A stretch of DNA of 25,600 nt. Source: Clostridia bacterium (GTDB taxonomy: Bacteria; Bacillota_A; Clostridia; Oscillospirales; CAG-272). The notes below the pieces were generated by a model. It was given only the letters and a program-made list of their open reading frames with translations. It was not told where the DNA came from and did no database searches. A program made the translations under genes and the position numbers. Positions 4,437 to 22,515 of the stretch are shown one piece after another; position 1 is the first letter of the stretch, and each line of letters begins with the position of its first letter. The DNA lies in assembly GCA_017453335.1 (NCBI GenBank), contig JAFTKI010000022.1, forward strand, positions 1-25,600. The letters run 5' to 3'.

Positions 4437-4497
4437 GCCGTTTGCGCATAGTTTTATCGATTCTTCAAATATCCCGTTCTTTTTTCGGGATAAAAAA

Positions 4498-4523: not shown

Positions 4524-4541
4524 GGTTATGGTTATTTATCT

Positions 4542-6158
4542 CTATTCCTTTTGATTTTGCAGATAATCTTCCAATTCGCTTTTGATCACGGACACCTGCG
4601 GTCCGTACACCACCTGTACACCGTCGCCCTTTCGGATCACACCTGCCGCGCCGCTTTGCTTGAGCAAGGATTCCTCGACACGCGAGGGATCCTTCACCGT
4701 AACGCGCAACCGTGTCGCACAGCAATCCAGCGTTTCCAGATTGTCGGCACCGCCCAAGCCCTTTGCAATGAGCGCGGAAACACCGTCGGTTTTAGCATTC
4801 TTCTTTTCGTTGTAATCTGCGCGCGTGTAAAGCTTGGTCTCGCTTTCATCATCCTCTCGCCCGGGCGTGAGATAGTTTCTTTTGCGGATGAGGAAGCGGA
4901 ACAGCAGAAAATACACGATGAAATAGAATACACCCACCAAGGGGATCATCAGCCAATTGGTCTTTTCGTTTCCTTGCAGAACGCCGAAGAGGAAAAGGTC
5001 GATCAGTCCTCCCGAGAAGGTCATTCCAACGCCTACGTTCAACAGGTGCATCAGCATATAGGCAAGACCTGCCAGCACCGAGTGGATCACATACAATAAG
5101 GGGGCAACAAACAGGAAAGTGAATTCCAAGGGCTCCGTAATACCCGTCAGCATCGCGGTCAGAGCCGCCGAGAGCAAAAGTCCGCCCGCAACCCGTCTTT
5201 TGTGCGGCTTGGCGCAGGTGTACATTGCAAGTGCCGCACCGGGAAGACCGAAGATCATCAAAGGGAATTTTCCGCTCATAAAACGGCAGGCATCCACCGA
5301 AAAGCGCGTGGTGTTGGGCGATGCCAGCTCGGCAAAAAAGATATTTTGCGCACCGAACACCAGGGTGCCGTCGATCAATGCCGAGCCGCCCACTCCCGTT
5401 TGCCAGAAGGGAAGGTAGAAAACGTGGTGCAAACCGAACGGGATCAGAATACGCTCAATAAAGCCGTAGATCAGTGTGCCGCCAAGTCCCGAGCGCAGAA
5501 CGAGATCGCCCAGCGCGTAAATACCGTTCTGAACGTAGGGCCACACGAAAAACATGAGCACGCCCACGAGAATATAAACTGCGGTGGAAATGATGGGAAC
5601 GAAACGTGTCCCGCCGAAAAAGGAGATCACATTTGGTAAACGGATCTTATAGAATCGGTTGTTCAGTGCCGCCACGCCAAGACCGACAATGATACCGCCG
5701 AACACCCCCATCTGCAACGATTCGATTCCCACCACGTTGGCAATCGTTCCCTCTGCCATCGCGCCGGGCTCCAACCGACCGCTGATCGAAAGCAGGGCGT
5801 TTACGGTTTTGTGCATGACGAAAAAAGCGATTGCCGCCGACAAGGTAGCGGTGGCTTTTTCCTGCTCTGCCATACCGAGTGCCACGCCCATGGCAAATAA
5901 AAGGGGCAGATTGTCAAAGATGACCGTTCCGACCGATGCTAAGAGACTGAAGATCGAATACGCCACCGTCCCGGGGCCCATCCATTCAAGAAGCCCGTAG
6001 GTCTCCAGCATGGCGGAGTTGGTCAGCGATGCCCCCACACCCAGCAAAAGTCCCGCGATGGGCAGCAGAGCGATGGGGAGCATAAAGGCTCGTCCCACAC
6101 GTTGCAGTACGCCGAACGTACCGCCTTTTTTTTGATCCTTTAATAATGCCTGTGCCAT
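4542..6158 (-). CDS. PTS EIICB permease, glucose/N-acetylglucosamine superfamily
   Basis: The 538-aa membrane protein imports and phosphorylates a hexose. Residues 1-430 form the EIIC domain with about ten membrane segments, the FGLHHVFYLPFW stretch (241-252) and the signature GITEPLEF (339-346), whose Glu342 contacts sugar in this superfamily. After a charged linker, the EIIB domain carries LDCCATRLRV; Cys480 aligns with the phosphorylated cysteine, preceded by an extra Cys479. There is no fused EIIA; that is the upstream gene. The AAAGGAG ribosome-binding site runs into the EIIA stop codon and the genes are 3 nt apart, so translation is probably coupled. Glucose, GlcNAc or a glucoside are all possible; GlcNAc would fit the nearby hexosaminidases. 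Confidence 0.93.
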   Translation of the reverse strand: MAQALLKDQKKGGTFGVLQRVGRAFMLPIALLPIAGLLLGVGASLTNSAMLETYGLLEWMGPGTVAYSIFSLLASVGTVIFDNLPLLFAMGVALGMAEQEKATATLSAAIAFFVMHKTVNALLSISGRLEPGAMAEGTIANVVGIESLQMGVFGGIIVGLGVAALNNRFYKIRLPNVISFFGGTRFVPIISTAVYILVGVLMFFVWPYVQNGIYALGDLVLRSGLGGTLIYGFIERILIPFGLHHVFYLPFWQTGVGGSALIDGTLVFGAQNIFFAELASPNTTRFSVDACRFMSGKFPLMIFGLPGAALAMYTCAKPHKRRVAGGLLLSAALTAMLTGITEPLEFTFLFVAPLLYVIHSVLAGLAYMLMHLLNVGVGMTFSGGLIDLFLFGVLQGNEKTNWLMIPLVGVFYFIVYFLLFRFLIRKRNYLTPGREDDESETKLYTRADYNEKKNAKTDGVSALIAKGLGGADNLETLDCCATRLRVTVKDPSRVEESLLKQSGAAGVIRKGDGVQVVYGPQVSVIKSELEDYLQNQKE

Positions 6159-6161
6159 GTT

Positions 6162-6647
6162 TTACTCCTTTTTCTGATCGGCTAAACGGTAGACGGCAAG
6201 CTCGCTTTTGCCGCCCAAGCCTTTTCCCGTGCGCACCGTGAAAGCCTCTGTCGCATCGGGGTTGGTGAGCAGAACCACAACGTGCGTATAGAGCTTTTCT
6301 TGCTTCAAAAGATCAAGATCAACCCTTGCCAGCACGTCGCCCGCGCGAACGCGGTCACCCTCGGCAACCATCGGCAGAAATCCCTTGCCTTTGAGCGATA
6401 CCGTATCGATTCCGATGTGTACCATCATTTCCACGCCGTCCTCGCTCACCAAAGTATAGGCGTGCCGCGCATCGGCAACGCTTTCGATCTGCCCCGACAT
6501 CGGTGCGTAAACGGTTCCCGCATCGGGAAGCACCGCCGCACCGATCCCCAGCATTCCCGAGGCAAAGACCTCATCGGGAACCTCCGAGAGCGGAATTGCA
6601 GCTCCGTCGGCAGGGAAAAGCAGTAATTTTTCTTTTTTTCCAAACAT
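6162..6647 (-). CDS. crr: PTS EIIA component, glucose type (Crr-like)
   Basis: The 161-aa soluble protein passes phosphate from HPr to the EIIB cysteine. It has the beta-sandwich EIIA-Glc signature: APMSGQIESV, His62, and the phospho-accepting His77 in VHIGIDTVSLKGKGF. The 15-residue spacing of the two histidines matches EIIA-Glc. The C terminus is a little shorter than typical. ATG at 6647 is preceded by GAGGT at suitable spacing. It lies between ptsI and the EIICB gene in one transcription unit, so it almost certainly serves that permease; it could also feed other EIIA-less permeases in the genome. Confidence 0.93.
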   Translation of the reverse strand: MFGKKEKLLLFPADGAAIPLSEVPDEVFASGMLGIGAAVLPDAGTVYAPMSGQIESVADARHAYTLVSEDGVEMMVHIGIDTVSLKGKGFLPMVAEGDRVRAGDVLARVDLDLLKQEKLYTHVVVLLTNPDATEAFTVRTGKGLGGKSELAVYRLADQKKE

Positions 6648-6675
6648 TTTGATTACCTCAATTTATTCATAACAC

Positions 6676-8325
6676 TCAGTTGCATTCGCTGACCTTGCCG
6701 CGCACGCCCAACAGATAGGGAACCGATACCGAAAGCTCGTCAACGGCAAGATCGGCAAATTTTTGCGTGAGCGACAGATCGGCGGCAAGCTCTCCGCATA
6801 CCCCGATCCAACCGCCGCGGCGGTGAATGGCATCGGCGGCTTTTGCGATCATCCGCAGGATCGGCTCGGTGTTTTCCCGAATCAAGCGATCCAGGGCGGG
6901 ATTCTGTCGGTCTGCCGCCAGCGTATACTGTGCCAGATCGTTGGTTCCCACCGAGAAAAAATCCACCTCGCGTGCCAGCTCCTCGCACATCACAACGGCG
7001 GCGGGCGTTTCGATCATAATACCGAATTCTATCGTGCTGTCAAAGCGAAGCTCCTCTCGCTTCAGCTCCTCCATACACTCCTCCAGCAAGCGGCGGCACT
7101 CCCGAACCTCGTCCACCGATACCACCATCGGAATCATCAAGGAAATCCGTCCCAAAGCAGATGCGCGCAAAATGGCACGCAGTTGTGTTTTGAAAAGATC
7201 CTTTCTGGCAAGGCAAACGCGAATTGCGCGAAATCCCATGGCAGGATTTTCTTCCTCGGGGAGTCCGAAATAGGTGATCTTTTTATCGGCACCAACGTCC
7301 AGTGTGCGGATCACGGTGCGTTTTCCCTGCATCTTTTGCGCGATTTCGGCGTATGCGCGGAAAAGCTGCTCCTCGGTGGGATAATCGGTACAGCCGAGAT
7401 ACAGAAATTCACTGCGCAACAGCCCGATCCCGTCGGCTCCGTTGGCCAGTGCCGCAGGAACCTCATCGCCGTCTCCCAAATTGGCGTAGATCAGGATCCT
7501 GTGGCCGCTCTTAGTGGCGGCGGGTTTGTTCATCAATGAGCGCAGATAACGGTCATGCTCTTCCGCAATCCGATCCTCTTTGCGTTGCCTTTCCGCAAAT
7601 GCCGCGATCTCGGCTTGGCTTGGCGAGAGCGTCAGCTTTCCGTCGGCGGCATTGAGAAGAGCAAAGGAGCCGTCCCATTCGGGATCGACCGTGCCAACAT
7701 CCACCAATGCGGGGATTCCCATTGCTCTTGCAAGAATTGCGGTGTGCGAATTGGGCGTCCCCCGAAAGGTGACGAATCCGAGAATCTTGGATTTGTCCAG
7801 AAGAACGGTCTGTGAGGGGGAGAGGTCATCGGCAACCAGAATAAAAGGTGTATCCGTGTGCAGATCATTTTCGCCGTCGGCACAAAGAATTTCCATTACG
7901 GTTTTTGCTATGTCGCGGATGTCGGCGGCGCGGGCAGAAAGATAAGGATCGTTCAAAGAGACCAGCATGGCTTGAAAGCTGCGCGAGGCAGATTCCAGCG
8001 CGTCCTCGGCACATTTTCCCGCATCGATCTCGGCACGAATCCCGTCCAGAAAGTCGCCGTCCTCCAAAAGCATGGCGTGAATTTCAAAAATTTTTGCTTC
8101 CTCGTCTCCCAGCATCTGCAGGGCACGCTCGTACAGCAAGACCGTCTTTTGACGCCCCAGCTCCAACGCCTGTTTGATACGCGCCCATTCTTCTTCTTTT
8201 CCTTGGGAAAGGATCTGCCGTTTTTTAAAGGTTCTCTCTTGATAAAAGCGAAGCGGTCCTGCGGCAAGGCGCGATGTGATACCGATGCCGCGCAATGTTT
8301 GCGATTTGAGCGCGGAATTACTCAT
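6676..8325 (-). CDS. ptsI: PTS Enzyme I (phosphoenolpyruvate-protein phosphotransferase)
   Basis: The 549-aa cytoplasmic enzyme takes phosphate from phosphoenolpyruvate and gives it to HPr. The N-terminal HPr-binding/phosphohistidine domain has the active His194 in TPNSHTAILAR. The PEP-binding barrel follows, with LLRSEFLY, RTLDVGADK and the C-terminal GVCGELA carrying Cys510. The usual GGRTSH reads GTPNSH here, so the residue two before His is Asn instead of Thr. The length is somewhat below the usual 570-575. The start at 8325 (MSNSALKS) is chosen because GGGGG lies just upstream and the family's N-terminal domain begins there; the 40 residues possible upstream are out-of-frame HPr coding sequence. 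It overlaps ptsH by 8 nt, implying translational coupling. Confidence 0.94.
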   Translation of the reverse strand: MSNSALKSQTLRGIGITSRLAAGPLRFYQERTFKKRQILSQGKEEEWARIKQALELGRQKTVLLYERALQMLGDEEAKIFEIHAMLLEDGDFLDGIRAEIDAGKCAEDALESASRSFQAMLVSLNDPYLSARAADIRDIAKTVMEILCADGENDLHTDTPFILVADDLSPSQTVLLDKSKILGFVTFRGTPNSHTAILARAMGIPALVDVGTVDPEWDGSFALLNAADGKLTLSPSQAEIAAFAERQRKEDRIAEEHDRYLRSLMNKPAATKSGHRILIYANLGDGDEVPAALANGADGIGLLRSEFLYLGCTDYPTEEQLFRAYAEIAQKMQGKRTVIRTLDVGADKKITYFGLPEEENPAMGFRAIRVCLARKDLFKTQLRAILRASALGRISLMIPMVVSVDEVRECRRLLEECMEELKREELRFDSTIEFGIMIETPAAVVMCEELAREVDFFSVGTNDLAQYTLAADRQNPALDRLIRENTEPILRMIAKAADAIHRRGGWIGVCGELAADLSLTQKFADLAVDELSVSVPYLLGVRGKVSECN

Positions 8326-8602
8326 GCGTATCCCCCTTTTTCTCCAGCTCAAGCGAGCGTAACTGGATTTCCAACGAGGTTGCCGCTTGCTCCTCGTCCT
8401 CACCGCTGATCGAAAAGGTAAGCTCGGTACCGTGAACTGCGCCAAGACTCATCAGGGCAAGCAAGCGTTTCCCGTCAACCTCTTTTCCGTTGGCAGAAAC
8501 GCGGATCTCGGAGGTAAAACGCTTGGCAAAGGTTGCAAGCTGTCCCGCGGGCCGCGCGTGCAAACCGTTCGGATCCTGAATCCGATAGAAAAACTGTTTC
8601 AT
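8318..8602 (-). CDS. ptsH: HPr phosphocarrier protein with Arg at position 46
   Basis: The 94-aa HPr shuttles phosphate from Enzyme I to EIIA. His15 lies in the canonical NGLHARPAG. The later MSLGAVHG loop is conserved, but position 46, normally the regulatory serine phosphorylated by HPr kinase, is Arg (codon CGC, 8467-8465). The catalytic PTS role looks intact, while Ser46-based catabolite signalling through CcpA would be absent for this copy. ATG at 8602 is chosen from the AAAGGA site and the family length. It is the first gene of the PTS operon. I find no convincing promoter in 8603-8674, so the start of transcription is unclear. Confidence 0.93.
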   Translation of the reverse strand: MKQFFYRIQDPNGLHARPAGQLATFAKRFTSEIRVSANGKEVDGKRLLALMSLGAVHGTELTFSISGEDEEQAATSLEIQLRSLELEKKGDTHE

Positions 8603-9481: not shown

Positions 9482-9509
9482 GTGGAGAATAAAGAATCTT
9501 GAAAAAAGA

Positions 9510-9515
9510 AAGGAA
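9510..9515 (+). promoter_or_regulatory. Ribosome-binding site fixing the spoIIE start
   Basis: AAGGAA, with its core 8-9 nt before ATG at 9523. It argues against the in-frame TTG at 9499, which lies upstream of the site. Confidence 0.7.
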
Positions 9516-9522
9516 GTTGATT

Positions 9523-11973
9523 ATGCAGGAAAACATCGATATGGAACGGGTAAAAAAACAAACGGGGGCCAAAGAGGGGACAAGCATCTCCTTACGAGTT
9601 ATCGTAAAATGGCTGCTCATGGAATTCGTTTGGGCGGTGGGCGGTTGGCTTTTGGGACAAGCCGAGCTTGCCTTTGAGGTCTTTCCCTTGGGCATTGCCT
9701 TTTTGTGCGCCTCGGGAAGCCACACCCTGCCGATCCTTGTGGGTGCGCTTTTCGCAGGGGTGTGGTACATGGAAACGCCTGCGATCTACATCGCGGTATA
9801 CGTTGCGGCGGCATTGATCCGTTTGGTGGCTGGGCTTTGGTTGGAAACTGCCGCGGATCAAAAGCCGATGTGGAAGCGGTTGCTTGAACATCTGTTTTCC
9901 AAGCTTGAATTCGCGCAAGAGGCACCGAAGAGTGCGGCGAGTCTTTGGAGCGGACAGGCTTTGAGCGAGCCGAAAAAGAAGGGACTATTCAATGAAGGGA
10001 TATGGCTGCGCATTTCGGCAGGTGCGATCTGCGCGTTGATCCTTGCTCTGTACCGCGTTCTGGCGAACGATTTTCAGTATTACGATTTCTTTGCCGCTGT
10101 TTTCTCGGTGCTGGTCACGGTTGTGGCAACGGTGATCTATTCCATGTCGCTCAACGGTCAGGCGGAAAAATCACTTCCCAGCCGAATTTCGCGCACCGTG
10201 CTGTTGTTTTCGCTGGTATACGCGGCAAAAACTGTGGCGGTGATCGGCTTGCCGCTTGCCCCCGTGTTGGCGTTTTTGTTTACCCTGTATACAACCAAGC
10301 GCGAGGGAACTGCAATGGGGGCTATTTGTGCGGCTGTTGTGGGAATTGCCTGTGATCCATTGCACGCGCCTGCCTATCTTTTGGCGGCGCTGGTGTGCGG
10401 AATGATGAAAAAGGAGGATCACGGTGTCGGTGTTGCGGCAATCTCCGCCTTTGCGGCACTGACTTGGCTTGTTTACATTGAGGGCGTGAGTGCGTTATTG
10501 GTTTATCTGCCGTCCTTTTTGCTCTCGGGTACAGCTTATACCGTCGTCGATCGTTTCTTTAGCGACCGTGAGCCTGCAACCGACGCAAAAGAAGATGAGG
10601 ACAGCGTTCGCTTGCGTATGGAAGGAACACGGCACAAGGACGCAAACGACCGTTTCAGAGGTATTTCGGAGGCGTTTTCCTCACTCTCCGAGGTGTTTTA
10701 TAATCTCAGCGATCGGTTTCGCCGTCCGGGAAGCTTGGATCTGCGCCGCGTTTGCGACCGCTCCTTTGACCGATACTGTACCGATTGCCCGCATAAAACG
10801 GTTTGTTGGGGTATGGAATATTCCAATACGGTTGCCACGGTCAACCGTTTGACCTCTGCCTTGCACACCAAGGGAAAGGTCACACTCGGGCAGATCCCGC
10901 CCTCTTTGGCACACCGTTGCGAGCAGCTTCCCGAAATTTTGGAATCGATCAACCGTGACTGCGCAAAATTGACGGGGGAAATGCTTCGTAACAACCGCAC
11001 CGAGATCTTTGCGATGGATTATGAGGCGGCGGCAAGCATTATCAACGATGCGCTGGCGGAGGATGACGGCGAATACCGCTTTGACACCGAGCTGGAGCAG
11101 AAGATCTCCGAGTATCTGAGCGATGCGGGTGTGCGCGCCGAGCGCGTTACGGTGTATGGAAAACGGCGCAGACAGATCGCTATCCACAACGTAGAGGCAC
11201 AGGGCGCCAAGGTCTCGATCGATACCCTTTGTGCCGATCTGAGTGAAATGAGCGGATCGTTTCTGGATCGCCCGATGTTCGAATTGGACGGAAAAAGCGG
11301 TACCATGACACTGCGTGCAAAACGGAAATTCTCGGTTACGGGTGCGCAAAGCAACGTTTCTGCCGATGGCGGAGTCAGCGGAGATTCGGTCAATTTGTTT
11401 TTTAACAAGCAAGATTTTTTCTATGCGCTGATCAATGACGGAATGGGAGCGGGGCGAGAGGCTGCTGCTACCTCCAACCTTTGCTCGGTGTTTCTGGAAA
11501 AAATGCTTCGGGCGGGTAACCGTGCCAATACCTCTGTGCGTGTTTTGAATAATCTCGTTTGCTCGCGTTCGAGCGACAGCGTGCGGGAATGCTCGTCCAC
11601 GGTTGATCTTTTGGAGCTTGACCTGATGACAGGCGACTGTGTGTTTATCAAAAGCGGGGCGGCTCCCAGCTTCGTCGTACGGCAGGGGACTGTGCATCGC
11701 TTGGAATGCGGCAGTGCGCCGATCGGGATTCTGAACGGTATTGAAGCACAAAGCACCGCCTTTTGCCTGAAGGAGGGAGACTTGGTGGTAATGATCAGCG
11801 ATGGAATTTTGCAGGACGATTCCGAGTGCGGGTGGCTGATGTCCTATCTGGCGGCATCGGAGGATCGTACCCCCGAGGAGCTGGTAGCTCAGATCATGTC
11901 AAGATCGTCCGATTCGGAACGGCATGATGATTGCTCTGTGATCGCTCTGCGGATCGAAGCCGTACGGGAATGA
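9523..11973 (+). CDS. spoIIE: Stage II sporulation protein E, PP2C-type phosphatase
   Basis: The 816-aa membrane phosphatase dephosphorylates SpoIIAA in the forespore and so releases sigma-F; it also acts at the asymmetric division site. Residues of about 25-350 form a multi-helix membrane domain. A cytoplasmic regulatory region follows with the cysteine motif CTDCPHKTVC. The C-terminal PP2C domain has INDGMGAGREA (Asp639) and MISDGIL (Asp760), the metal-binding aspartates. The length is close to Bacillus SpoIIE. The ATG at 9523 is preferred over TTG at 9499 because AAGGAA lies just before it. The gene is monocistronic; a weak stem (11983-11998) with T-run follows. Presence implies an endospore former. 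Confidence 0.95.
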   Translation: MQENIDMERVKKQTGAKEGTSISLRVIVKWLLMEFVWAVGGWLLGQAELAFEVFPLGIAFLCASGSHTLPILVGALFAGVWYMETPAIYIAVYVAAALIRLVAGLWLETAADQKPMWKRLLEHLFSKLEFAQEAPKSAASLWSGQALSEPKKKGLFNEGIWLRISAGAICALILALYRVLANDFQYYDFFAAVFSVLVTVVATVIYSMSLNGQAEKSLPSRISRTVLLFSLVYAAKTVAVIGLPLAPVLAFLFTLYTTKREGTAMGAICAAVVGIACDPLHAPAYLLAALVCGMMKKEDHGVGVAAISAFAALTWLVYIEGVSALLVYLPSFLLSGTAYTVVDRFFSDREPATDAKEDEDSVRLRMEGTRHKDANDRFRGISEAFSSLSEVFYNLSDRFRRPGSLDLRRVCDRSFDRYCTDCPHKTVCWGMEYSNTVATVNRLTSALHTKGKVTLGQIPPSLAHRCEQLPEILESINRDCAKLTGEMLRNNRTEIFAMDYEAAASIINDALAEDDGEYRFDTELEQKISEYLSDAGVRAERVTVYGKRRRQIAIHNVEAQGAKVSIDTLCADLSEMSGSFLDRPMFELDGKSGTMTLRAKRKFSVTGAQSNVSADGGVSGDSVNLFFNKQDFFYALINDGMGAGREAAATSNLCSVFLEKMLRAGNRANTSVRVLNNLVCSRSSDSVRECSSTVDLLELDLMTGDCVFIKSGAAPSFVVRQGTVHRLECGSAPIGILNGIEAQSTAFCLKEGDLVVMISDGILQDDSECGWLMSYLAASEDRTPEELVAQIMSRSSDSERHDDCSVIALRIEAVRE

Positions 11974-12058: not shown

Positions 12059-12087
12059 TTGCAACCGTAAAAAAAATGTGGTACAAT
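12059..12087 (+). promoter_or_regulatory. Housekeeping promoter of the acidic surface-protein operon
   Basis: TTGCAA (12059-12064), 17-nt A-rich spacer, TACAAT (12082-12087). An A/T-rich dyad AGTTAA...TTAACT follows at about 12090-12115, in the leader. Confidence 0.82.
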
Positions 12088-12150: not shown

Positions 12151-12155
12151 GGAGG
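12151..12155 (+). promoter_or_regulatory. Ribosome-binding site supporting a TTG start
   Basis: GGAGG lies 9 nt before TTG at 12165. No ATG is suitably placed, and the first membrane helix begins 16 codons later, so TTG is the likely start. Confidence 0.8.
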
Positions 12156-12164: not shown

Positions 12165-15083
12165 TTGTTTTCACCAATCTTTTTATCCGGAACGGGAGGA
12201 ATTTCCACACAAACCATGATTTGGATCGCGGTGATCGCACTGGCGTGTGTGCTGATCGCGGAGCTGGTGGGGATCTATATTTTGATCACCAAAATGATGC
12301 GTGCCCGTGAGCTGAAAGAGAAGAATTCCAATTACCGAAATTACGGTATGGGAGTGTTTCTTTTGTCGGGTGCGGTGGGCTTGAGCGGTCAGACCTTGTT
12401 GATGATCCTGGCGATCCTGACGCTGCTTGCAGCCTTGGTGCTTGTGGGACTTTTGGCGGCGGCTCGTATTCTGGGATATGATTTTTCGGCTTCCAAGAAA
12501 CCAGAGGCGCAAAGCGAACCCGTACAGCCCGAGGCACCCGTGAAGAAACAGCCCGAGGCAGTTTCGGCGTTTGCGGAGGACGAGCAGGATGATTACTTTG
12601 TATCCGAGGAGGACGTTTGGGAAGAGCCTGACGAGGCAGTACTTGCCGATCGCGTTGTAACCGAGGAGGCTGTGGTCACCGAAGCCGTTGCGGCAGAGGA
12701 GATTGAGGAAACTGTCGTAGAGGAAACTGTCGTAGAGGAGACTGTAGCGGAAGAGACCGTGACAGTAGAAACCGTGGCGGAAGAACCCGCAACCGATGCA
12801 ACTGCACAAGAGGAAAACGCTACCGAAAAACCGATCGAAACCGAAACAACCGTGACCGTTGTCGAGCCGGCCGCTCCTGTGGTAACTGCAGAGGAATCCA
12901 AAACGAAAAATGACGATCAGCCCTACCGTGTAGTGGAAAAGATCGTGACCGAAACCGTGAAAGAGGTTTACAAGGAGTCTTCCCAGCCTGCACAGCAGCC
13001 CGCAACGGGTACGAACGATTCTGTGGTGGAAAAGTTGGTTGATCTTTTGGACTACGAGATGCGTACACGGCGCGAACTGGAATTAGCCGAGGCTGCGAAA
13101 AAGGCGGCGGCAAACAACGAAACTGTTGCAACTGCTGCGTCCGCGACTGTTCTTTCCGATGAAGACGAGGACGATGAGGAAGACGAGAATACCGAGCCGG
13201 ACGAGACCGTTTCCGATTCTGCCGATGAGACCGACGATGAGGAAAATGATGCCGAGAACGATCGCTTCACCGGAAATGAACGCATCATCGGCTTTGATGA
13301 GCAGACGGGATGTTACATCGTGGCGCACTATCGCAAGAGCTTTGAAGCAAAGCTGATCCAGGCGCGCCCGAATATCAAACAATATTACAGCGAACTCAAA
13401 AACGCGTTGCTCTCGTATAAGGGAACGAAAAACCGCATCAGTTGGACGGCAGACAGCTTCCACAACGGCAGAACGCCGATTGCGAAGATCAACGTGAAAA
13501 CGAGAATTCTGGAGCTTTATCTGGCACTTGATCCCGAAACTCTGGAGGGAACGGTTTACCGCGGCAAGAATGTGGGCGACAAAAAGAAATATGCAGATAC
13601 GCCCTTCCAGTACAAGCTGCGTACCCCCAGAAAGTTCAAGTGGGCAATGGAGCTGGTACAGCGCGTATGCGAGGAAAAGGGCCTTACCCCCATTGATATC
13701 GAAAAGGTGGACTATGAGGCGCAGTATCCTTTTGACACCACCGAAAACCTGGTGGAACGCAAGCTGATCAAGGAATATATCCGACAGGAGAAGCCCGCAA
13801 GCTCCTTCGAGTTGGATCCCGAGCACGTGCCGACTGTTCCCACCGAGGACGAGACCGTGATCCCCGCGAATGCAAACTTCTCTTGGGAGTTTGACAATGA
13901 ACGCATGGTGGAAAAAGAACCCGAGGTGGTAGTTGAACCCGAGGTGGTGGTCGAACCCGCCCCCGAGCCTGTGACCGAACCCGAGACGGTTGTTCAAACA
14001 GCGCCCGAGGCGGCTCCTGCCGAGGTGGTGCGCGAAACCGTGAAGGTAACCGAAATGCGCTACACCGAGCGCTATTATTCGGACAAGCCCGAAAACGGGC
14101 CGGAGGTCACCGTTTTCGAGCCGATTACGGTTGAGGCAGAGCAGGTTGTGACTACAGAGACCGTTGCGGATGCGGAGACTGTTGTTGAATCGACAGCGGT
14201 TGATAGCACACAAGCCGAGGAAGTTGTTGTAAAGAAAGAAGAACCCGTACAGCTCGAAGAAACCGAAGATGCAGACACAACGCTTGCCGATAACGAGATC
14301 TCGGAGTCGGATGCCTTGAACGGGGAAAATGAGCTCGTCTCCCATGAGGTCGTATTTGCAGATGACGCATCTTACGGAGATGGCGAAGAGTATGCTCCTG
14401 TAGAAACGAATGACGGAAAGGTCGATGACGGACAGGAGAATATCACTGTGATCGAGCAATACGATGAATTCGAAGATGAAGATGATGGCGAAACGATCTT
14501 CTCCAATGAATATGAAGAGATTCCTTATGAGGAAGCTCCTTTCGAGGATGCCTTGATTGAAGAACCCGTGTTCGAGACGGTTGAAGACGACTACGTAGAA
14601 GACGACTATGTTGAAGAAGGCTACGTCGAAGAAAACTACACCGAAGAAGGCTATGCCGAAGAGGAGTATGCCGAGGAAGGCTATGTCGAAGAAGGCTACA
14701 CCGAAGAGGGATATGCTGAGGAAGGTTACGTAGAAGAGGGCTATGCCGAAGACAACTATGTCCAAGAGGGTTACGAAGAACCGTATGACGGACAGGCTTA
14801 CGAACAGCCTGCCGCAGAGTACAAGCCCCCGATCCGCGAGAGCTTCAATCCTTCGGTTGCCGTAATCGATCTTTGCTCGGTGGAATCCGTGTTCCGTGCA
14901 GGAGAGGTTATTTCGCTGGATACGCTCAAGGAACGCAATCTTGTTTTGGCGGGCGTGAGTGTTTTAAAGGTCTACACATCGGGCAAGCTTGGAAAAGCCT
15001 TCACCGTAGAAGCAAATCAGTTTACCGTGGATGCGATCCATGCGATCACCGAAGCACACGGCGACGTGATCGTAGTACGATAA
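12165..15083 (+). CDS. Membrane-anchored acidic repeat protein with uL15-like C-terminal domain
   Basis: The 972-aa protein has a mosaic layout. Two membrane helices (about 17-42 and 76-100) flank a strongly basic loop. A Glu/Val/Thr low-complexity stretch contains EETVV repeats (about 180-205). A compact domain of unknown function (about 365-550) includes KSFEAKLIQ, YYSELKNALLSYK and LYLALDP; I recall similar domains in other uncharacterised Clostridia proteins. Then come EPEVVV repeats (about 583-600), a second acidic region, and 13 tandem pentapeptides of EEGYV type (807-871). Residues 900-972 match the pattern of the C-terminal part of ribosomal protein L15: GEVISLDTLKE, VSVLKVY, GKLGKAFTVEANQF, then a terminal strand. 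It is not a ribosomal protein, given the anchor and size. It starts at TTG and is followed 13 nt later by a surface-protein gene. Function unknown. Confidence 0.8.
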   Translation: MFSPIFLSGTGGISTQTMIWIAVIALACVLIAELVGIYILITKMMRARELKEKNSNYRNYGMGVFLLSGAVGLSGQTLLMILAILTLLAALVLVGLLAAARILGYDFSASKKPEAQSEPVQPEAPVKKQPEAVSAFAEDEQDDYFVSEEDVWEEPDEAVLADRVVTEEAVVTEAVAAEEIEETVVEETVVEETVAEETVTVETVAEEPATDATAQEENATEKPIETETTVTVVEPAAPVVTAEESKTKNDDQPYRVVEKIVTETVKEVYKESSQPAQQPATGTNDSVVEKLVDLLDYEMRTRRELELAEAAKKAAANNETVATAASATVLSDEDEDDEEDENTEPDETVSDSADETDDEENDAENDRFTGNERIIGFDEQTGCYIVAHYRKSFEAKLIQARPNIKQYYSELKNALLSYKGTKNRISWTADSFHNGRTPIAKINVKTRILELYLALDPETLEGTVYRGKNVGDKKKYADTPFQYKLRTPRKFKWAMELVQRVCEEKGLTPIDIEKVDYEAQYPFDTTENLVERKLIKEYIRQEKPASSFELDPEHVPTVPTEDETVIPANANFSWEFDNERMVEKEPEVVVEPEVVVEPAPEPVTEPETVVQTAPEAAPAEVVRETVKVTEMRYTERYYSDKPENGPEVTVFEPITVEAEQVVTTETVADAETVVESTAVDSTQAEEVVVKKEEPVQLEETEDADTTLADNEISESDALNGENELVSHEVVFADDASYGDGEEYAPVETNDGKVDDGQENITVIEQYDEFEDEDDGETIFSNEYEEIPYEEAPFEDALIEEPVFETVEDDYVEDDYVEEGYVEENYTEEGYAEEEYAEEGYVEEGYTEEGYAEEGYVEEGYAEDNYVQEGYEEPYDGQAYEQPAAEYKPPIRESFNPSVAVIDLCSVESVFRAGEVISLDTLKERNLVLAGVSVLKVYTSGKLGKAFTVEANQFTVDAIHAITEAHGDVIVVR
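12705..12765 (+). repeat. In-frame 15-nt repeats encoding EETVV
   Basis: Three nearly identical 15-nt units encode EETVV/EETVA-type pentapeptides. The DNA identity is high, which suggests recent slippage or unequal recombination within the gene. Confidence 0.7.
14583..14777 (+). repeat. Thirteen in-frame 15-nt units encoding E-E-G-Y-x pentapeptides
   Basis: Thirteen contiguous 15-nt units (residues 807-871) read EDDYV twice, then variants of EEGY followed by V, T or A, ending EDNYV, QEGYE. Tyrosine recurs every fifth residue and nearly all others are acidic. Codons vary between units, so the peptide pattern is maintained beyond simple DNA identity. Confidence 0.92.
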
Positions 15084-15096
15084 GGAGGTCAACACA

Positions 15097-18000
15097 ATGT
15101 TCAAAAAAGTACATATCAAATTTGGGCTGGCTGTGCTGCTCCTTCTGGCAACGGTTTTGTCGTTCACGCTTCTGACACAGGCGGCAGAGAGCCAAACCAA
15201 CACCATCACCGTTTTTTATGACGAGAACTGTAAGGAAGTCAGATTGTTCTATAAGACGGGGGATGCCGAGGGTGAGGCGCTGCAAAGCGGTGTGGCAAAG
15301 GAGATCCCCGCAGGAACCGCGAATGTCCGTCTGGAGCTGAAGCTTCACGACGGTTATGATATTGATGAGTCGTTCGACAATCAGTATGTTCCGATCTTCA
15401 AGCCGGATGATCTGGTTTACGATTTCGGTGTTGCACTGACCGAGGATAAATCCATCGTTGTCACAACCAAACCGAAGGTTTACAACATCAACTATATCAG
15501 AACCACCCCCGAGGGAACTGCCGATATCGGAACAGCGCCCCAAACACATACCTATAAGGTTCAGACCGAGATCGTAAATCCCACGTTGGTTGGTTACGAT
15601 TTCGTGAAATGGCTGATCCTGCCGGCACATCCCGACAATATCCCCAACTTTGATCCGAGCAATTATACCGACGCGCTGGTGCCGTCGAATTCGGGCAAGG
15701 TGGAGCTGCCCGCAACCAAGCTTCCGAGCGATCCCGCACAAAAAACCTTCTACCTCTACCCCGTATGGACTCCGTACACCTACGAGGTTAAGGCTGTGGA
15801 CGTGATCTACTCGGGCAATCCCAACGAGCCGTTTGGCGGTTATCTGCGCTCCGAGCCGTATCTGATCGGGCTGTTCCCCGCGGGAACCCGAGTGCAGGGC
15901 AACGATGCTGCCGTTACCACCAACGGTGTCAACTTCACTTATAACGGCTTCTATTTTGACGAAACGGCAACCCTTGCAATCGATAAGGGCACCATCACCG
16001 TTATGGCGAACAACGACAACAACATCGTGTATCGCTATTACACTGCTTACGAATACGATCTGAAATACGGATGCTCGGTTGGCAACGAAAGCCTGACATT
16101 GCCCGAGGGCAGTGCGGCTCTTCCCACCAAGCACACCTACAATAAGCCCACCGTTTTGCTTGAGCCGATCCTGAAGGGATATACCTTTGCAGGCTGGAAG
16201 GTCGAGGTATACCAGAACGGCGCATGGGTGAATGTTTCCGATTTCATGAGCTACACCTTCCCGCAGATCACCCGTGTTCCCAATATGCTTTCTGCATATT
16301 CCACGGGAGAGCCGTCCGCCTTTTATTCGGAGCCTTGTGCCGAGTATGAGGGCAGACGCGTGATCCGTCTGACCGCACTGTGGACTCCCAAGGAGTTCGG
16401 TGTCAGCTTCGATCTTGATAGCTTTGCTGACCCAAATTTCCCCGCAGAAACGTATAACAAGTATATCTATAACACCGATCTTGTGATCCCCAATCCCGTA
16501 CGTCCCGGATATACCTTCCTTGGATGGACCTTGAATTCGGGCAGCTTTATCGATCAGACGATCGAGGCGGTGGACGGATATACGACCATTCCCGCAAAAA
16601 CCTATACCAACGATATTACTTTGGCGGCTCGCTGGGCGGCTAACACCTACGAGATCACCTTTGACGGAAACGGTGCGGACGGAGAGGCTGTTTTGCCGCC
16701 CATGTCCGCAGTTTACGATGAAGCCTTTGCTTTGCCGCAGGGGTTTGTATTCCCAACTCGCACAGGACACGATTTCAAAGGCTTTTCGCTGGATGCCGAA
16801 GGCTTGGAGATGCTGATCGATGCAGACGGTACTCCCCTCATTCCGATCTGGAACATTGACGGGGACAGCGTGCTGTATGCACAGTGGGATCGTTGCTCCT
16901 ACGAGTTTTCGATCACCGACTCCACTCAAACTCTGTTTGAAAATGCAATTGTTCGTGTGAACGGAACCGAGTACACGGGCGGTGCTTTGATATTCAAGTA
17001 CGGTGACACCATTACCGTTGAGGTTTCGATTCTGACTACGGAGCTGAACACCTATCGTCCTCTCAAGCTGATCCTTTGGAAGGGCGCCGAGGACACAGAG
17101 CCGCAGCCGATCGCACACTCCTACGTTTACACCTACACCTTCAATCTGGGCGCTCACAATACCGAATTGACGGGCGTGGTTGCCCCCTTGGCTTCGATCC
17201 CGCAGTTCAAGATCGATTATCTGACCGAAACGTTGGTAACCGATACGGGCAAGCTTCCCAACGGAAAGTACAGAGTGCTTTACGGAACCGAGTCCTTGCT
17301 GGTTGAGGTTCTTGACGGAACGGTTTATATCACCAAGAACGGTGAGAAAGAGCAGTGCAAGGCGGTCACCTTGGGTGAATCCGCATTTGACAGCACCATG
17401 ATCTCGATCGTGGTGTGCGGAAACGGCGTTTCCACTGCCGACAGCAACGTGATCCATCTTCCCATCGAACCCAGACCTTCCGCTCCCGTGCTGGATGCGG
17501 GCGGAAAGGGAGAGATCCAATATATTTATCCGCATGATGATACGAAAATCATCATTCAACTGACAAGACCCGAGGACGGTGCGCTTTACGAGTTCGCTTG
17601 CTCCTTGACCGATCGAGAAAACGAAGTGATTCGCTGGTATCTGGTGGGCGACACTGTACCGGAAGCCGGCACGATGATGTTTGAAAATCTGAAGCCCGGA
17701 ACGCCTTATTACATTTTCGTTCGTAAGAGAGCGGTAGCAGATCAGCATCCTCACGGTATTTCGCAGGTTATCATGGTAAACACCACCAGCGACAGCACGA
17801 TTGAGGCAAAGAAGCAGGAGCTTGATGAGATTCGTAAAACTGCCGATGGCGACGTGCTCAGAGAGCTGATCGATCATGTGAAGGCTGAGCTGGATGCGCT
17901 GGGTGCTTTGGGAGCATCTCCCGACTTTGAAAGTCGGATGAATGCGATTCTGGAGCAGGTATCTCCCACAAAGATTGCCTTTGCCAGAAACAAGGATCTT

Positions 18001-19413
18001 CTGATCAAAAATCTGACCGCGTATTACACTGCGCTTGTTAACAGCGGATGCTTCAACGATACGGGCGTGGAAAACTTGAAGAATATCTACACCTATTCCG
18101 TGGCTGCCATCAAAGCTGCCGCTACAAGCGAGAGCGCACAGCTGACTTATGACATTGCGGTGTTGCAGATGTCAGAGATCCGCGTTACGCACATGATTCA
18201 CGATGTGTTGCATCTGATTTCGCTCAACAGCAGTCTGCCGCAGGGCTTGACCTTCCGTCAGTTCCGCGTGGATGATATCGAGAATCTTCTTGATTCGGTA
18301 TATTCGTCGATCGAAAATCAAAAGGTTGTGGTAAACGGCAGCTTTATGACCGCGCAGGAGGCACAGACATTGCTGGAAACTCTGGAGGTTCTGGCATCCT
18401 ATTCTGTGGAGCTGTTCTACACGCAAGGAAACGTAGCATTTACCGAGTTTGATCCCGACGGATACGAGCTTCGTTTGCTGATTCCTTCGAATATGCTCGA
18501 TAAGACAGGCTTGCAGGTGGCGTATTTTGACGAAAAAACGGGAGAGATCACGCTTCTGGAAACCAAGCGCGAGGGCAACGAGCTGGTGTTCTATGCCGAT
18601 CGCGTTGAGGACTTCATCATTTTGGGAGATGCCACCGTTGATATGACCTTCTTCCTGATTGCAATGTCTGCAATTCTGGTGATGCAAGTGATCGCAATTG
18701 CGATCCTGCTGACTCGCCGCAAAAAGACGGCAGAGGGGAACTCTGTGAATGGTGTTGCCTTCCTGCCCACAATGCTTGCAGCTCACTTTGCACCGACAGG
18801 CGCTATGGTATGGTTCCTGATCCTGTGCGGATTGGTGATCGTTGCGCAGATTTATCTAATCTATTTGCTCAAGACCTCTAATCTGTTCCACCGTGACGGG
18901 CAGACTCCCTCCGAGGAGGATGACGCGAATGAGAAACGCATCAAAAAGACCGTAACGGATGCCGATAACGGGACAAGACAGAACGAGCAAAACGCAAACG
19001 CTCGAAAGAAGCCGACCAACACGGCTGCCGATGCGGCTGCGGCAATGATGGTCTTTGATGAACCGTATGATTACAGAGACAGTCAGAACAGCCGGAAAGA
19101 GGCTCCCGGGGAGTGGTTCTACGAGGATGAGGAGGACGAATCTGATCAGTCCGATTACGAGCAATCTGAGAATGCAAACAACGGTTGGAGCTATGATCCC
19201 GAAACGGGAGAGGTATTTGACTACGTTGAGGACGATGGGAACGAAGCGTATGAGATTCCCGTTGAGGATGCACCCGTGAACGAGAGAAAGACAACCGAGG
19301 AGGTTGCAGAGGAAGAAGTGCTTGAAGAGGAGATCGTGGACGAGATCTATATAGAGCCCGATATCACAGGCGATCAAGCGCCTCCTCCCGGCGGATACTA
19401 CGAAGAAGCATAA
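15097..19413 (+). CDS. Secreted, membrane-anchored surface protein with InlB-type B-repeats and acidic tail
   Basis: The 1438-aa protein starts with a signal peptide (basic MFKK, hydrophobic core, likely cut after QAA near residue 30). Four InlB/Listeria-Bacteroides type B-repeats follow (about 129-225, 315-430, 430-515, 515-605), recognisable by GYTFxGW, YEITFDGNGA and LYAQWD. A beta-sandwich or Fn3-like part (about 790-890) and a helical, coiled-coil-like part (about 898-1100) come next. Near the C terminus two helices (about 1182-1206 and 1234-1258) flank a basic RRKK loop, followed by a 170-residue acidic tail ending PPPGGYYEEA. There is no LPXTG motif, so it is membrane- rather than wall-anchored. 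A perfect AAGGAGGT overlaps the upstream stop codon: a two-gene operon. Adhesion or cell-surface organisation is plausible but unproven. Confidence 0.87.
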   Translation: MFKKVHIKFGLAVLLLLATVLSFTLLTQAAESQTNTITVFYDENCKEVRLFYKTGDAEGEALQSGVAKEIPAGTANVRLELKLHDGYDIDESFDNQYVPIFKPDDLVYDFGVALTEDKSIVVTTKPKVYNINYIRTTPEGTADIGTAPQTHTYKVQTEIVNPTLVGYDFVKWLILPAHPDNIPNFDPSNYTDALVPSNSGKVELPATKLPSDPAQKTFYLYPVWTPYTYEVKAVDVIYSGNPNEPFGGYLRSEPYLIGLFPAGTRVQGNDAAVTTNGVNFTYNGFYFDETATLAIDKGTITVMANNDNNIVYRYYTAYEYDLKYGCSVGNESLTLPEGSAALPTKHTYNKPTVLLEPILKGYTFAGWKVEVYQNGAWVNVSDFMSYTFPQITRVPNMLSAYSTGEPSAFYSEPCAEYEGRRVIRLTALWTPKEFGVSFDLDSFADPNFPAETYNKYIYNTDLVIPNPVRPGYTFLGWTLNSGSFIDQTIEAVDGYTTIPAKTYTNDITLAARWAANTYEITFDGNGADGEAVLPPMSAVYDEAFALPQGFVFPTRTGHDFKGFSLDAEGLEMLIDADGTPLIPIWNIDGDSVLYAQWDRCSYEFSITDSTQTLFENAIVRVNGTEYTGGALIFKYGDTITVEVSILTTELNTYRPLKLILWKGAEDTEPQPIAHSYVYTYTFNLGAHNTELTGVVAPLASIPQFKIDYLTETLVTDTGKLPNGKYRVLYGTESLLVEVLDGTVYITKNGEKEQCKAVTLGESAFDSTMISIVVCGNGVSTADSNVIHLPIEPRPSAPVLDAGGKGEIQYIYPHDDTKIIIQLTRPEDGALYEFACSLTDRENEVIRWYLVGDTVPEAGTMMFENLKPGTPYYIFVRKRAVADQHPHGISQVIMVNTTSDSTIEAKKQELDEIRKTADGDVLRELIDHVKAELDALGALGASPDFESRMNAILEQVSPTKIAFARNKDLLIKNLTAYYTALVNSGCFNDTGVENLKNIYTYSVAAIKAAATSESAQLTYDIAVLQMSEIRVTHMIHDVLHLISLNSSLPQGLTFRQFRVDDIENLLDSVYSSIENQKVVVNGSFMTAQEAQTLLETLEVLASYSVELFYTQGNVAFTEFDPDGYELRLLIPSNMLDKTGLQVAYFDEKTGEITLLETKREGNELVFYADRVEDFIILGDATVDMTFFLIAMSAILVMQVIAIAILLTRRKKTAEGNSVNGVAFLPTMLAAHFAPTGAMVWFLILCGLVIVAQIYLIYLLKTSNLFHRDGQTPSEEDDANEKRIKKTVTDADNGTRQNEQNANARKKPTNTAADAAAAMMVFDEPYDYRDSQNSRKEAPGEWFYEDEEDESDQSDYEQSENANNGWSYDPETGEVFDYVEDDGNEAYEIPVEDAPVNERKTTEEVAEEEVLEEEIVDEIYIEPDITGDQAPPPGGYYEEA

Positions 19414-19421: not shown

Positions 19422-19460
19422 GCCCGTGTGATCTGTTTGGATCGCACGGGCAACTTTTTT
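19422..19460 (+). terminator. Intrinsic terminator of the surface-protein operon
   Basis: A 12-bp GC-rich stem with one wobble (19422-19433 with 19440-19451), 6-nt loop, then TTTTTT at 19455-19460. Nothing is recognised between here and the next promoter at 19573. Confidence 0.92.
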
Positions 19461-20307: not shown

Positions 20308-21537
20308 TCAGATTTCGATTTTGGCGATTTTGATAACAAGATTTTCGCCGTATTTTTGGGAATCGTAACAAACCGTTACGCGCTCGCCGTTTTGTACAAA
20401 GTCCAGATCCTTGCCGGAATCAAGCCATTTGATCGATCGGATCTTTTCGGGAAGCGCAAATCTATCTGTGTAATCCGCTCTTTCAAAGCGTTCTGCCACG
20501 TTGATATTGCCACCCATCGGAATATCGTGTACAAATAAGTAGTAGCAACCCTCGCCGCGAAGAAGGAAATCCTTATCCTTGCCCTCAATCGCAATTTTGG
20601 TGGGACGGGGCAAATACAGCGCGTCTCTGTGGATCTCCGCCCATTCGCCCAGTGTCAGAAGCATTGCTTTATCCAAGGGGCGCAACAGACCGTTGCCCAT
20701 GGGTCCCACGTTGAGCAAAAAGTTTGCGCCAAAGCGTCGACAGATGCAATAGTCACCAATGATCTCCGCGAGTGATTTGAAATGGAAGTCGCGTTTTGCA
20801 TATCCCCAATGGTCGGCGAATATCTGACACATCTCGCTTGCGATGTACTTTGGTGAGTCCTCCAGATTGATCTCTCCCGGTCTGCCACGCTCAAAGGTTA
20901 CGGAGTCCAGTTCAATGTGACCGAGGGCACCGCGGGCATGAAGTCCTGTATTGTTAATGATCATTGCCTCCGGCTGATAGGTGCGGATCATACCATAAAG
21001 CGCGTCTTCCTCCCAATCATCGTTCGGGCGGTCCCACATTCCGTCAAACCAAAGACCGCCAATCTTTCCGTAACGGGTGCAAAGAATCTCAACACTGCGG
21101 CGCAGGTATTTGAGATATGCGGGAAAATCGGTATAATAGGTCGGTTCATGCCAATCCAGGAGCGTGTGATAGAAGAACGGAATGATCCCGTGATTGTGAC
21201 AGGCGTCGACAAATTCTCGAACCAAATCGCGGCCTGCCGCACTGTGCGGCGCATCATAGGCGTTAAGCCCACAGGTGTCGTAAAGCGAAAAGCCGTCGTG
21301 GTGACGCGTGGTAAGTGTAATATATTTACATCCTGCGGCGCGCGCTGTCGCAGCAAGCTCGTCAGCCCATTCGGGCACAGGATTAAAAACGTCAAACAGC
21401 TTTTCGTAGTCCGAGGGCGAGATGTTGGTGGAGCGAAGCGCCCACTCGCCCTTGCCGTTTTCGCTGTAAAGCCCAAAATGCACGAACATTCCAAATCCGA
21501 GCGTTTCAAATCGCTTGATATATTCCTTAACGATCAT
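20308..21537 (-). CDS. GH29-family alpha-L-fucosidase, probably cytoplasmic
   Basis: The 409-aa enzyme should release alpha-linked L-fucose. It has the GH29 barrel start GFGMFVHFGLYS, the substrate-binding TTRHHDGF (His79/His80), and GGLWFDGMW with Asp165 as the likely catalytic nucleophile. Later NVGPMGNG is typical of the family. A short C-terminal beta domain follows. No signal peptide is seen, so it probably acts on imported fucosylated oligosaccharides. AAGGAG lies 7 nt before ATG, and only 3 nt separate it from the upstream GH20-like gene, showing an operon. The general acid is not assignable by eye, and the alpha-1,2/3/4/6 linkage is unknown. Confidence 0.93.
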   Translation of the reverse strand: MIVKEYIKRFETLGFGMFVHFGLYSENGKGEWALRSTNISPSDYEKLFDVFNPVPEWADELAATARAAGCKYITLTTRHHDGFSLYDTCGLNAYDAPHSAAGRDLVREFVDACHNHGIIPFFYHTLLDWHEPTYYTDFPAYLKYLRRSVEILCTRYGKIGGLWFDGMWDRPNDDWEEDALYGMIRTYQPEAMIINNTGLHARGALGHIELDSVTFERGRPGEINLEDSPKYIASEMCQIFADHWGYAKRDFHFKSLAEIIGDYCICRRFGANFLLNVGPMGNGLLRPLDKAMLLTLGEWAEIHRDALYLPRPTKIAIEGKDKDFLLRGEGCYYLFVHDIPMGGNINVAERFERADYTDRFALPEKIRSIKWLDSGKDLDFVQNGERVTVCYDSQKYGENLVIKIAKIEI

Positions 21538-21540
21538 TGT

Positions 21541-22515
21541 TTAACTCCTTTTGCCGTAATATGTTTCAATGGCAAGCTTTTGGCAGGTTGCGTCGTGCAA
21601 AAGACCGTAAAGCATTTCGGGAATGGTCAGATGCCACGGTGCGCTCATAAAGCCGAGCAATTTGCTGTCGTTCATGTATTTCTTTGCGAAATTCATAGTG
21701 CGCAGGTTGCAGGTAGGCTCCGACCAAGTGGACGCACAGGGAATTTGATCATACCCCAGTTCCTCAAGCCTTTTGTATTGTCTGACAGATGGAGAAGCAT
21801 ACATATCATCTTCGCCTACGTGGATGGATCCGTAGTGATAATTGGAGAGGACAACGTCTTTGGGGACGGCTTGGGCAAACTTTGCTTCACTGCCGTAATA
21901 ATCAAAAACCGCCGTTCCTGCCCACATCCACGGTCTTGCTCCGTTTTTTCTGCAGGCATCAAACAGTTTTTGTGTATCCTCTGCAAATTGTTCGGGGCTT
22001 TTGGTGATGATGATCGAACGCCCGTTGATACGCTGTGAGCTCCAATCCTCCTCATCCATACCAATATGAAAAAGCTCGGGACCGTCAAAAAGCTCGCACG
22101 CCTCGTTGATGATATCATTACAAAAATCATAGTATTCTTTTGTTCCGATCTTATACATCATGTCTTTCATCCAACCGTTGTGACAGGCTGAAAAGTTGAA
22201 TTTGGGCAACGGCTCAAGACCGATCGAGCGCAGACGTTTTAACTCGTCCTTGAATTTTTCCCGCGACCAGCTTCCTCTTACCGCAAGCTCGGGATGAGAT
22301 CTTAATTCAACCGCCTCTCCCATGTCGATCAGCAAGGAGGTGATCTTACAGCCTGGTAAAAAATCGGTTACAGTCTTCCAAGTGGCATCGTCGGTAACCA
22401 GATAGTCACGGTAGATCCAATCGATGCTTTCCTTTTTGTACAGCTTCGCGTTGCCGGGCTTTTGCCACATATTTCCGCCAAGATGCATCAGAAACACGAA
22501 TCTTTTTTCGTTCAT
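21541..22515 (-). CDS. GH20-like TIM-barrel hydrolase, divergent
   Basis: The 324-aa protein looks like a single barrel domain. LFHIGMDEED (148-157) places an Asp154-Glu155 pair in the same local pattern as the GMDEAH motif of the GH20 enzyme at 360-2228. LPKFNFSACHNGWM precedes it as the usual barrel strand with a substrate-facing His. The protein lacks the N-terminal accessory domain of standard GH20 enzymes and is much shorter. No signal peptide. GGAGGG lies before ATG at 22515. It has its own promoter (22555-22583) and shares an operon with the fucosidase, so a role on fucosylated amino-sugar glycans is likely. Exact activity is unproven; a non-catalytic relative is possible. Confidence 0.72.
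   Translation of the reverse strand: MNEKRFVFLMHLGGNMWQKPGNAKLYKKESIDWIYRDYLVTDDATWKTVTDFLPGCKITSLLIDMGEAVELRSHPELAVRGSWSREKFKDELKRLRSIGLEPLPKFNFSACHNGWMKDMMYKIGTKEYYDFCNDIINEACELFDGPELFHIGMDEEDWSSQRINGRSIIITKSPEQFAEDTQKLFDACRKNGARPWMWAGTAVFDYYGSEAKFAQAVPKDVVLSNYHYGSIHVGEDDMYASPSVRQYKRLEELGYDQIPCASTWSEPTCNLRTMNFAKKYMNDSKLLGFMSAPWHLTIPEMLYGLLHDATCQKLAIETYYGKRS

Follow-up and report, generated by a model that had tools for sequence, protein, structure and literature searches.

A two-gene unit encoding two large predicted membrane proteins, one ending in a uL15-type domain, in a genus of Clostridia

1. Organization of the locus

The window analysed here (the whole stretch of DNA, 25,600 nucleotides, from a relative of uncultured gut Clostridia) carries two open reading frames on the same strand, 13 nt apart and placed as in the initial annotation. 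They are referred to as genes A and B, and their features are as follows.

12059..12087, + strand: promoter-like site 5' of gene A (TTGCAA-17-TACAAT, with TG before the second hexamer; 9/12 match)
12165..15083, + strand: gene A, 972 amino acids, TTG start; membrane module, acidic linkers, mid domain and uL15-type C-terminal domain
12201..12485, + strand: membrane module of A (HMM 'nt', residues 13-107), with TM1, a basic loop and a long hydrophobic second segment
13245..13922, + strand: mid domain of A (residues 361-586), without a Pfam family; predicted cytoplasmic
13923..14846, + strand: acidic linker of A (residues 587-894), with EEGY-type repeats
14847..15080, + strand: uL15-type C-terminal domain of A (residues 895-972), from Pfam, profile, PDB search, model and Foldseek
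15082..15089, + strand: ribosome-binding site of B, AAGGAGGT / TAAGGAGGT, overlapping the stop codon of A, 7 nt before the ATG of B
15097..19413, + strand: gene B, 1438 amino acids, ATG start; predicted signal peptide, InlB-type repeat ectodomain, juxtamembrane domain, membrane module and acidic tail, in that order
15109..15186, + strand: N-terminal hydrophobic segment of B (residues 5-30), a predicted signal peptide, from the hydrophobicity scan
16402..16629, + strand: best Flg_new/InlB-type repeat stretch of B (residues 436-511), from Pfam
18634..18876, + strand: membrane module of B (residues 1180-1260), from the hydrophobicity scan and profile comparison
18877..19410, + strand: acidic tail of B (residues 1261-1438), predicted cytoplasmic
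19422..19451, + strand: terminator-like hairpin 3' of gene B (13 pairs, 8 of them GC)

A GGAGG motif at 12151-12155 precedes the TTG start codon of A, and the ribosome-binding site reported to overlap the stop codon of A is present in the sequence at the spacing listed above. The promoter before A, which the initial annotation called strong, does not merit that adjective: it is a 9/12 match, and the whole scanned region contains 11 such sites against 7.9 ± 2.9 in shuffled sequences. Because sites of this class are not enriched over shuffles, the one at 12059-12087 is plausible by position only. Terminator-like sites are likewise not enriched (11 in the scanned region against 9.4 ± 2.9 in shuffles). 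Searches of the window for tRNAs and for Rfam families found none. The product of gene A is acidic, as first described, with a net charge of -153 and an Asp plus Glu content of 23.7%; residues 586-892 alone carry a net charge of -92.

2. The uL15-type C-terminal domain of A

A uL15-like pattern had been recognized at the C-terminus of A, and both profile searches and structure prediction bear it out. The Pfam family PF00828 matches residues 906-968 with an E value of 2.2e-8 and 34.9 bits, above its cut-off of 21.5, and TIGR01071 (rplO_bact) scores 31.1 bits, under its equivalog cut-off of 77.95. With the single sequence of the domain the best PDB match has an E value of 0.0013; with a 25-row family profile the best value is 1.4e-13, and 56 chains are found at E <= 0.01, of which 55 are deposited as uL15, L15 or eL18 and one as 'Uncharacterized protein'. 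AlphaFold2 modelled the domain with a mean pLDDT of 91.6. Foldseek returned 516 matches to this model at E <= 10 (best E 1.3e-5, TM-score 0.76 by query), and the best 50 all come, by title, from ribosome or ribosomal-particle entries, among them the RbgA and YsxC particles, which we take to be ribosomal particles. A ends in a true uL15-type domain, and the resemblance is far beyond chance. What A has in common with ribosomal protein uL15 (rplO; PF00828, TIGR01071) is the globular C-terminal domain, by sequence family, profile and predicted fold. To our knowledge, the uL15-type fold is known only from ribosomes.

Judged from its sequence, A is nevertheless not the ribosomal protein, in line with the remark in the initial annotation that it is clearly not ribosomal. 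In the genomes of 17 relatives the uL15-type domain lies within a large A-type ORF in 16, while a separate rplO-type ORF of 148-157 amino acids is present in seven and a partial piece at a contig end in an eighth; none was seen in the other nine, which are possibly incomplete. PF00828 in these 17 genomes is confined to the A-type ORFs, the rplO-type ORFs, a 383-amino-acid protein in genome G011 and a sub-threshold piece in G015. In ribosomal uL15 a basic, Gly/Arg-rich N-terminal arm enters the rRNA, and the corresponding stretch of the host uL15 proteins carries a net charge of +10 to +11 over residues 1-70 in all seven. A has no such arm and in its place carries the acidic linker.

The domain itself has also changed. 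A column comparison identified 11 columns of the domain with a basic residue in at least six of the seven host uL15 proteins. Across 115 A-type domains two of these columns keep their basic character, column 41 in 108 domains and column 54 in 104, two others are basic in 21 and six, and seven are basic in none; the lost positions presumably touch rRNA in uL15. In a wider group of 98 domains four of the 11 columns stay basic, in 62 to 98 domains. The mean net charge of the domain is +0.4 in host uL15, -4.3 in the A-type group and +0.6 in the wider group. A tree of 62 domains (25 of the 115 A-type, 30 of the 98 wider and seven rplO) places the A-type group and the rplO group each in one clade with 100/100 support, from 77 columns and with 28 of 58 inner branches open. 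A thus differs from uL15 in being a membrane-anchored protein of 972 amino acids without the basic arm, whose domain is mostly stripped of the conserved basic positions. The notion that A is a ribosomal protein or a recent copy of the host uL15 was rejected on its architecture and the separate rplO-type ORFs. Database entries named 'uL15 family ribosomal protein' from Clostridia and Bacilli MAGs belong to the same family, with a mid domain and a C-terminal uL15-type domain, and the name implies a ribosomal role that this architecture does not support.

3. The mid domain of A

The mid domain has no match among Pfam families (best E 0.02) or PDB sequences (best E 0.57), and a Foldseek search with its model returned nothing at E <= 0.001. 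The model may weakly resemble the YjbR, DUF1801 (YdhG) and frataxin-like folds (best Foldseek E 0.04), without a sequence match in Pfam or the PDB. The domain recurs in EAL, DUF5305 and DUF2357 proteins and in proteins of about 340-390 amino acids, and P0078 and P0102 join it, four times, to a McrC-type DUF2357 domain. The PADLOC candidate models PDC-S18 also match it, with E values of 3.5e-25 in P0078, 2.7e-16 in L103, 6.5e-9 in L099 and 2.3e-4 in P0001. A itself does not match the model as a whole and covers positions 192-300 of 302, at E 2.3e-4. The mid domain is thus common to A, the PDC-S18 candidate and the DUF2357 (McrC N-terminal) proteins; A differs from these proteins in lacking a DUF2357 domain, a nuclease family and recognized defence neighbours.

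Sampled genomes contain the mid domain in one of 398 at the level of the phylum (the seed itself), eight of 295 in the order and 49 of 295 in the family, and it occurs in 33 of the 35 genomes of the genus of G001 (a tool-made grouping). The distribution is patchy. A phylum-wide occurrence was considered and rejected, the single hit among the 398 sampled genomes being the seed. A phage origin was likewise considered and set aside; when viral contigs were scanned using the mid alignment, one of 17 pattern matches (L109) was a related locus.

4. Gene B and the two membrane modules

The InlB-type repeats described for B are confirmed, and the protein is predicted to be at the surface: three Flg_new/InlB-type stretches (PF09479, 58.8 bits against a cut-off of 27) follow the predicted signal peptide. 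B shares its repeats with the internalin-type surface proteins that carry PF09479, the Listeria-Bacteroides repeat. No leucine-rich repeat family is found among the Pfam matches to B at E <= 1, and no LPxTG motif, the wall anchor of InlA-type proteins, occurs in A or B. In contrast to internalin-type proteins, B has a membrane module with a long acidic tail, and the gene beside it, which looks like an obligate partner, encodes a uL15-type tail.

The membrane modules of A and B are related by profile comparison, with an hhalign probability of 90.2 and an E value of 1.5e-6 over 72 columns; the reversed alignment gives 0.9 and the best of 40 block-wise column shuffles 7.4. In both proteins, as in 65 relatives with two hydrophobic segments, Pro/Gly residues occur midway along the long second segment, which might be a hairpin.

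5. Conservation of the A-B pair

A search with the mid region of A returned 224 proteins, from which 119 A-type proteins were compiled (the best 120 minus two DUF2357 proteins plus the window). Among these matches, the window included, the mid domain and membrane module are present in 119 of 119 and the tail in 115. A search with the tail region alone found only five proteins. Some of the listed relatives bear the source name 'uL15 family ribosomal protein', and another is called 'topoisomerase-4 subunit A'. A scan of genome contigs yielded 17 loci, all on MAG contigs and all from one Clostridia genus (tool-made grouping); ruminant gut samples are named in the titles of 12 of them.

An A-type mid domain is present at >=60% identity in 26 of the 35 genomes of this genus. 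In G010, G589 and G498 the contig ends in or at A, and the 23 genomes with sequence past the 3' end of A are informative for pairing. A adjoins a B-like gene in 22 of these 23, in 20 by phmmer homology and in two by layout. Among the 20 phmmer pairs, that of locus L068 is weak (22 bits), that of L063 is truncated by the contig and in L014 B is broken into two ORFs. The two pairs recognized by layout (L012 and L066) have A followed by a protein with a signal-like N-terminus and no phmmer match to B; the neighbour in L066 has an InlB-like start and a membrane module, and that in L012 is cut after 206 amino acids. The lone informative genome without a B neighbour is G583 (L070), and its A has no hydrophobic segment at all. 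The gap between A and B ranges from -4 to 39 nt in the 20 measured pairs, the window included. The genes upstream and downstream of the pair differ between loci: no conserved third gene was recognized among the loci compared, and a SpoIIE relative 5' of A occurs, on similarity to the window genes only, in the window and L001 alone. A and B are a conserved two-gene unit within one genus. Neither finding that was named in advance as refuting the initial reading, a C-terminal domain without structural match to uL15 or genes seldom adjacent in relatives, was obtained. The pairing initially envisaged across Clostridia was seen in this genus alone; elsewhere the two halves are found in one protein.

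6. One-chain relatives and topology

The cytoplasmic part of a 1239-amino-acid relative was used as the query of a further search, which found 438 proteins; 119 of them (P0129-P0247), taken from the best 120, were scored. A one-chain form, with an ectodomain of >300 amino acids, one or more hydrophobic segments, the mid domain and the C-terminal domain, is present in 73 of the 119 scored among the matches listed; among the others 12 lack only the C-terminal domain, 23 have no ectodomain of this length and 11 have no hydrophobic segment. Precomputed matches to both PF09479 and PF00828 are present in 43 of 120 rows (best 120 of 438), and the relatives carry one to four copies of the mid domain. 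Names from Bacilli and Erysipelotrichaceae appear among the matches listed. In the 17 genomes of the pair, no one-chain protein with a uL15-type tail was seen.

Profile comparisons of the pair with these relatives, made without a shuffle control, gave a weak match for the membrane module of A (probability 67.3 over 22 columns), 75.4 over 76 columns for that of B and, for the juxtamembrane domain of B, 96.3 over 79 columns. B is matched at E <= 1e-5 by three of 125 wider-set proteins among the matches listed, and so its ectodomain would not generally be that of the ancestor. The best of these, P0125, aligns with residues 906-1422 of B and continues into the mid and C-terminal domains. From the one-chain relatives and the related membrane modules, the A-B pair looks like a split version of the one-chain family.

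The relatives also bear on which side of the membrane the mid domain and tail occupy. Hydrophobic segments were taken from a hydrophobicity scan and not from a trained predictor. A single segment lies between ectodomain and mid domain in 20 of 85 ectodomain relatives among the matches listed (19 with the C-terminal domain), and one segment combined with a cleaved or N-terminal signal would place mid and tail inside. Two segments are present in 65 one-chain relatives, and their flanks, with mean charges of -1.8, -0.3, 0.2 and +1.6, are no guide to the side of the mid domain. L103 carries SBP-like and GGDEF-EAL parts and, after them, two mid domains, without an intervening hydrophobic segment; the cytoplasm is where EAL domains work. 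We infer that the mid domain and tail of A face the cytoplasm.

7. Discussion

We propose, with about even confidence, that A and B form a membrane-spanning complex held together by their related membrane segments, in which B supplies the outer part, A supplies the inner part and the uL15-type tail docks a protein and not rRNA. B would reach out with its InlB-type repeats and A reach in with the possibly YjbR-like mid domain and the tail, the two binding each other through the membrane modules, while the long acidic linkers may act as spacers. On the outer side the complex could adhere to a surface or glycan, or sense one, and the tail, which has probably turned into a module for docking or anchoring proteins, would connect the cell exterior with a cytoplasmic partner. 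The genus would have split a single ancestral protein into two subunits. One membrane-spanning unit is likely because relatives carry a predicted outside part and the same kind of tail in one protein; it is mainly on these one-chain relatives that the case for a complex rests.

Of the alternatives, the one that survives best, although we consider it unlikely, holds that A and B are related membrane proteins that are merely co-expressed, B being an adhesin and A a separate cytoplasmic scaffold. Adjacency with short gaps needs only co-expression, and the mid domain is found in many other proteins (EAL, DUF5305, DUF2357 and those of about 340-390 amino acids); what speaks against independence is that the one-chain relatives join an ectodomain to the mid and C-terminal domains and that G583, where B is not a neighbour, has an A without a hydrophobic segment.

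Less probable still is a ribosome tether or ribosome-state sensor, with B and A coupling the cell surface to translation. The tail would then mimic uL15, and its target would be 23S rRNA, a uL15 partner or an intermediate of assembly. The tail does have the uL15 fold, and two lysine columns are kept in most A-type domains, as are four basic columns in the near-neutral wider group. Against this reading, an acidic linker (net -92) replaces the basic arm of uL15 (net +10 to +11), and nine of the 11 basic columns are lost, none of the nine being basic in more than 21 of the 115 A-type domains. A bolder reading, similarly doubtful, would have the uL15 fold leave the ribosome and serve a large family of transmembrane surface proteins of gut Firmicutes as their cytoplasmic tail; the two-subunit version would then couple an outside ligand to the translation apparatus or its assembly by uL15 mimicry.

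That the mid and uL15-type domains belong to an extracellular scaffold, and so lie outside the cell, is very improbable. If the two hydrophobic segments of A and many relatives were ordinary transmembrane helices, the chain would end up outside again, but 20 of the 85 ectodomain relatives listed have one segment only, the mid domain follows a cytoplasmic EAL domain in L103, and the long second segment of A and B, with Pro/Gly turns in its middle, is a possible hairpin. Slightly weaker again is an anti-phage or stress surveillance system with the mid domain as its working part, which could call on the PDC-S18 matches (best in P0078) and the fusions to McrC-type DUF2357 in P0078 and P0102, yet PDC-S18 is a candidate label only, used in no paper found by literature search, PDC-S18 did not match P0123 or P0128 and nothing matched P0002, Pfam recognized no defence gene beside A-B in the window, and the presence of an A-type mid domain in 26 of 35 genomes of the genus points to a core gene more than to an accessory defence island.

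A literature search, largely of papers outside subscription, found none on this architecture, and the terms 'L15', 'YjbR' and 'DUF5655' do not occur in the main text of PMC11090510. We know of no described system with the A-B layout. The parts are known folds or repeats, save the mid domain, and the layout is undescribed in the literature searched. The work also brings out the mid domain itself as an undescribed and much-reused domain, found as well in EAL, DUF2357 and DUF5305 proteins. The two-gene form offers a direct experimental handle on the membrane-spanning complex proposed here, its mostly-outside and mostly-inside chains being separately expressible for binding tests. If the proposal is true, databases mislabel some such surface proteins as ribosomal, and a ribosomal fold would have found a second use at the inner end of giant surface proteins that span the membrane of many uncultured gut bacteria.

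Short conserved stretches and repeats in A, B and related proteins

The acidic linkers of A, the membrane protein with a uL15-type C-terminal domain, carry two short conserved stretches.

Residues 253-271 (window 12921-12977): VVEKIVTETVKEVYKE-type stretch
Residues 622-638 (window 14028-14078): RETVKVTEMRYTERYY-type stretch

Simple patterns for the VVEKIVTETVKEVYKE-type and RETVKVTEMRYTERYY-type stretches matched 74 and 68, respectively, of the 119 A-type proteins (window included), which share with A its membrane module and the mid domain (residues 361-586 of A, without a Pfam family). For the predicted cytoplasmic tails of B, the InlB-repeat protein encoded next to A, a EPAANPRYSLPD-like pattern was drawn up post hoc, after inspection of those tails, and this short motif occurs in 12 of the 21 tails from the loci compared versus none of 4200 shuffled tails; it was not found in B of the window. 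In two related proteins, P0124 (locus L080) and P0128 (locus L084), an InlB-type repeat lies past the membrane segment, on the predicted cytoplasmic side; the repeat of P0124 is weak in Pfam (E = 0.022) and that of P0128 was recognized by eye.

Occurrence of the domains in other proteins

The mid domain is also found in tandem, with four copies located C-terminal to an McrC-type DUF2357 domain in the related proteins P0078 and P0102, both of which look cytoplasmic. P0078 matches PDC-S18, the PADLOC candidate defence model that detects mid, with an E-value of 3.5e-25. Further proteins carry either mid or the uL15-type domain.

L103:4483-8022 (genome of L015): GGDEF-EAL protein with two mid domains at its C-terminus
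L109:5001-5519: mid relative (35% identity), encoded on one IMG/VR contig
L033:4460-5611 (genome G011): 383-residue protein with a uL15-type C-terminal domain and two hydrophobic segments, without mid

Among the matches listed, the source names include 'uL15 family ribosomal protein', 'ribosomal protein L15' and 'topoisomerase-4 subunit A', which on A-type and wider membrane proteins look like mislabelling.

Genomic neighbourhood

The A-B pair is flanked in the window by the following genes.

360-8445, - strand: GH20-type hexosaminidase, PTS EIIC/EIIB, EIIA and enzyme I genes (one flank)
9499-11973: SpoIIE-type gene, ending approximately 190 bases upstream of A
20308-22515, - strand: alpha-L-fucosidase and weak GH20-like gene (other flank)

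Among the loci compared for neighbours, the order SpoIIE-type gene followed by A recurs only in L001. The GH20-type, PTS and fucosidase genes on the two flanks constitute a host-glycan or glycan-use neighbourhood.
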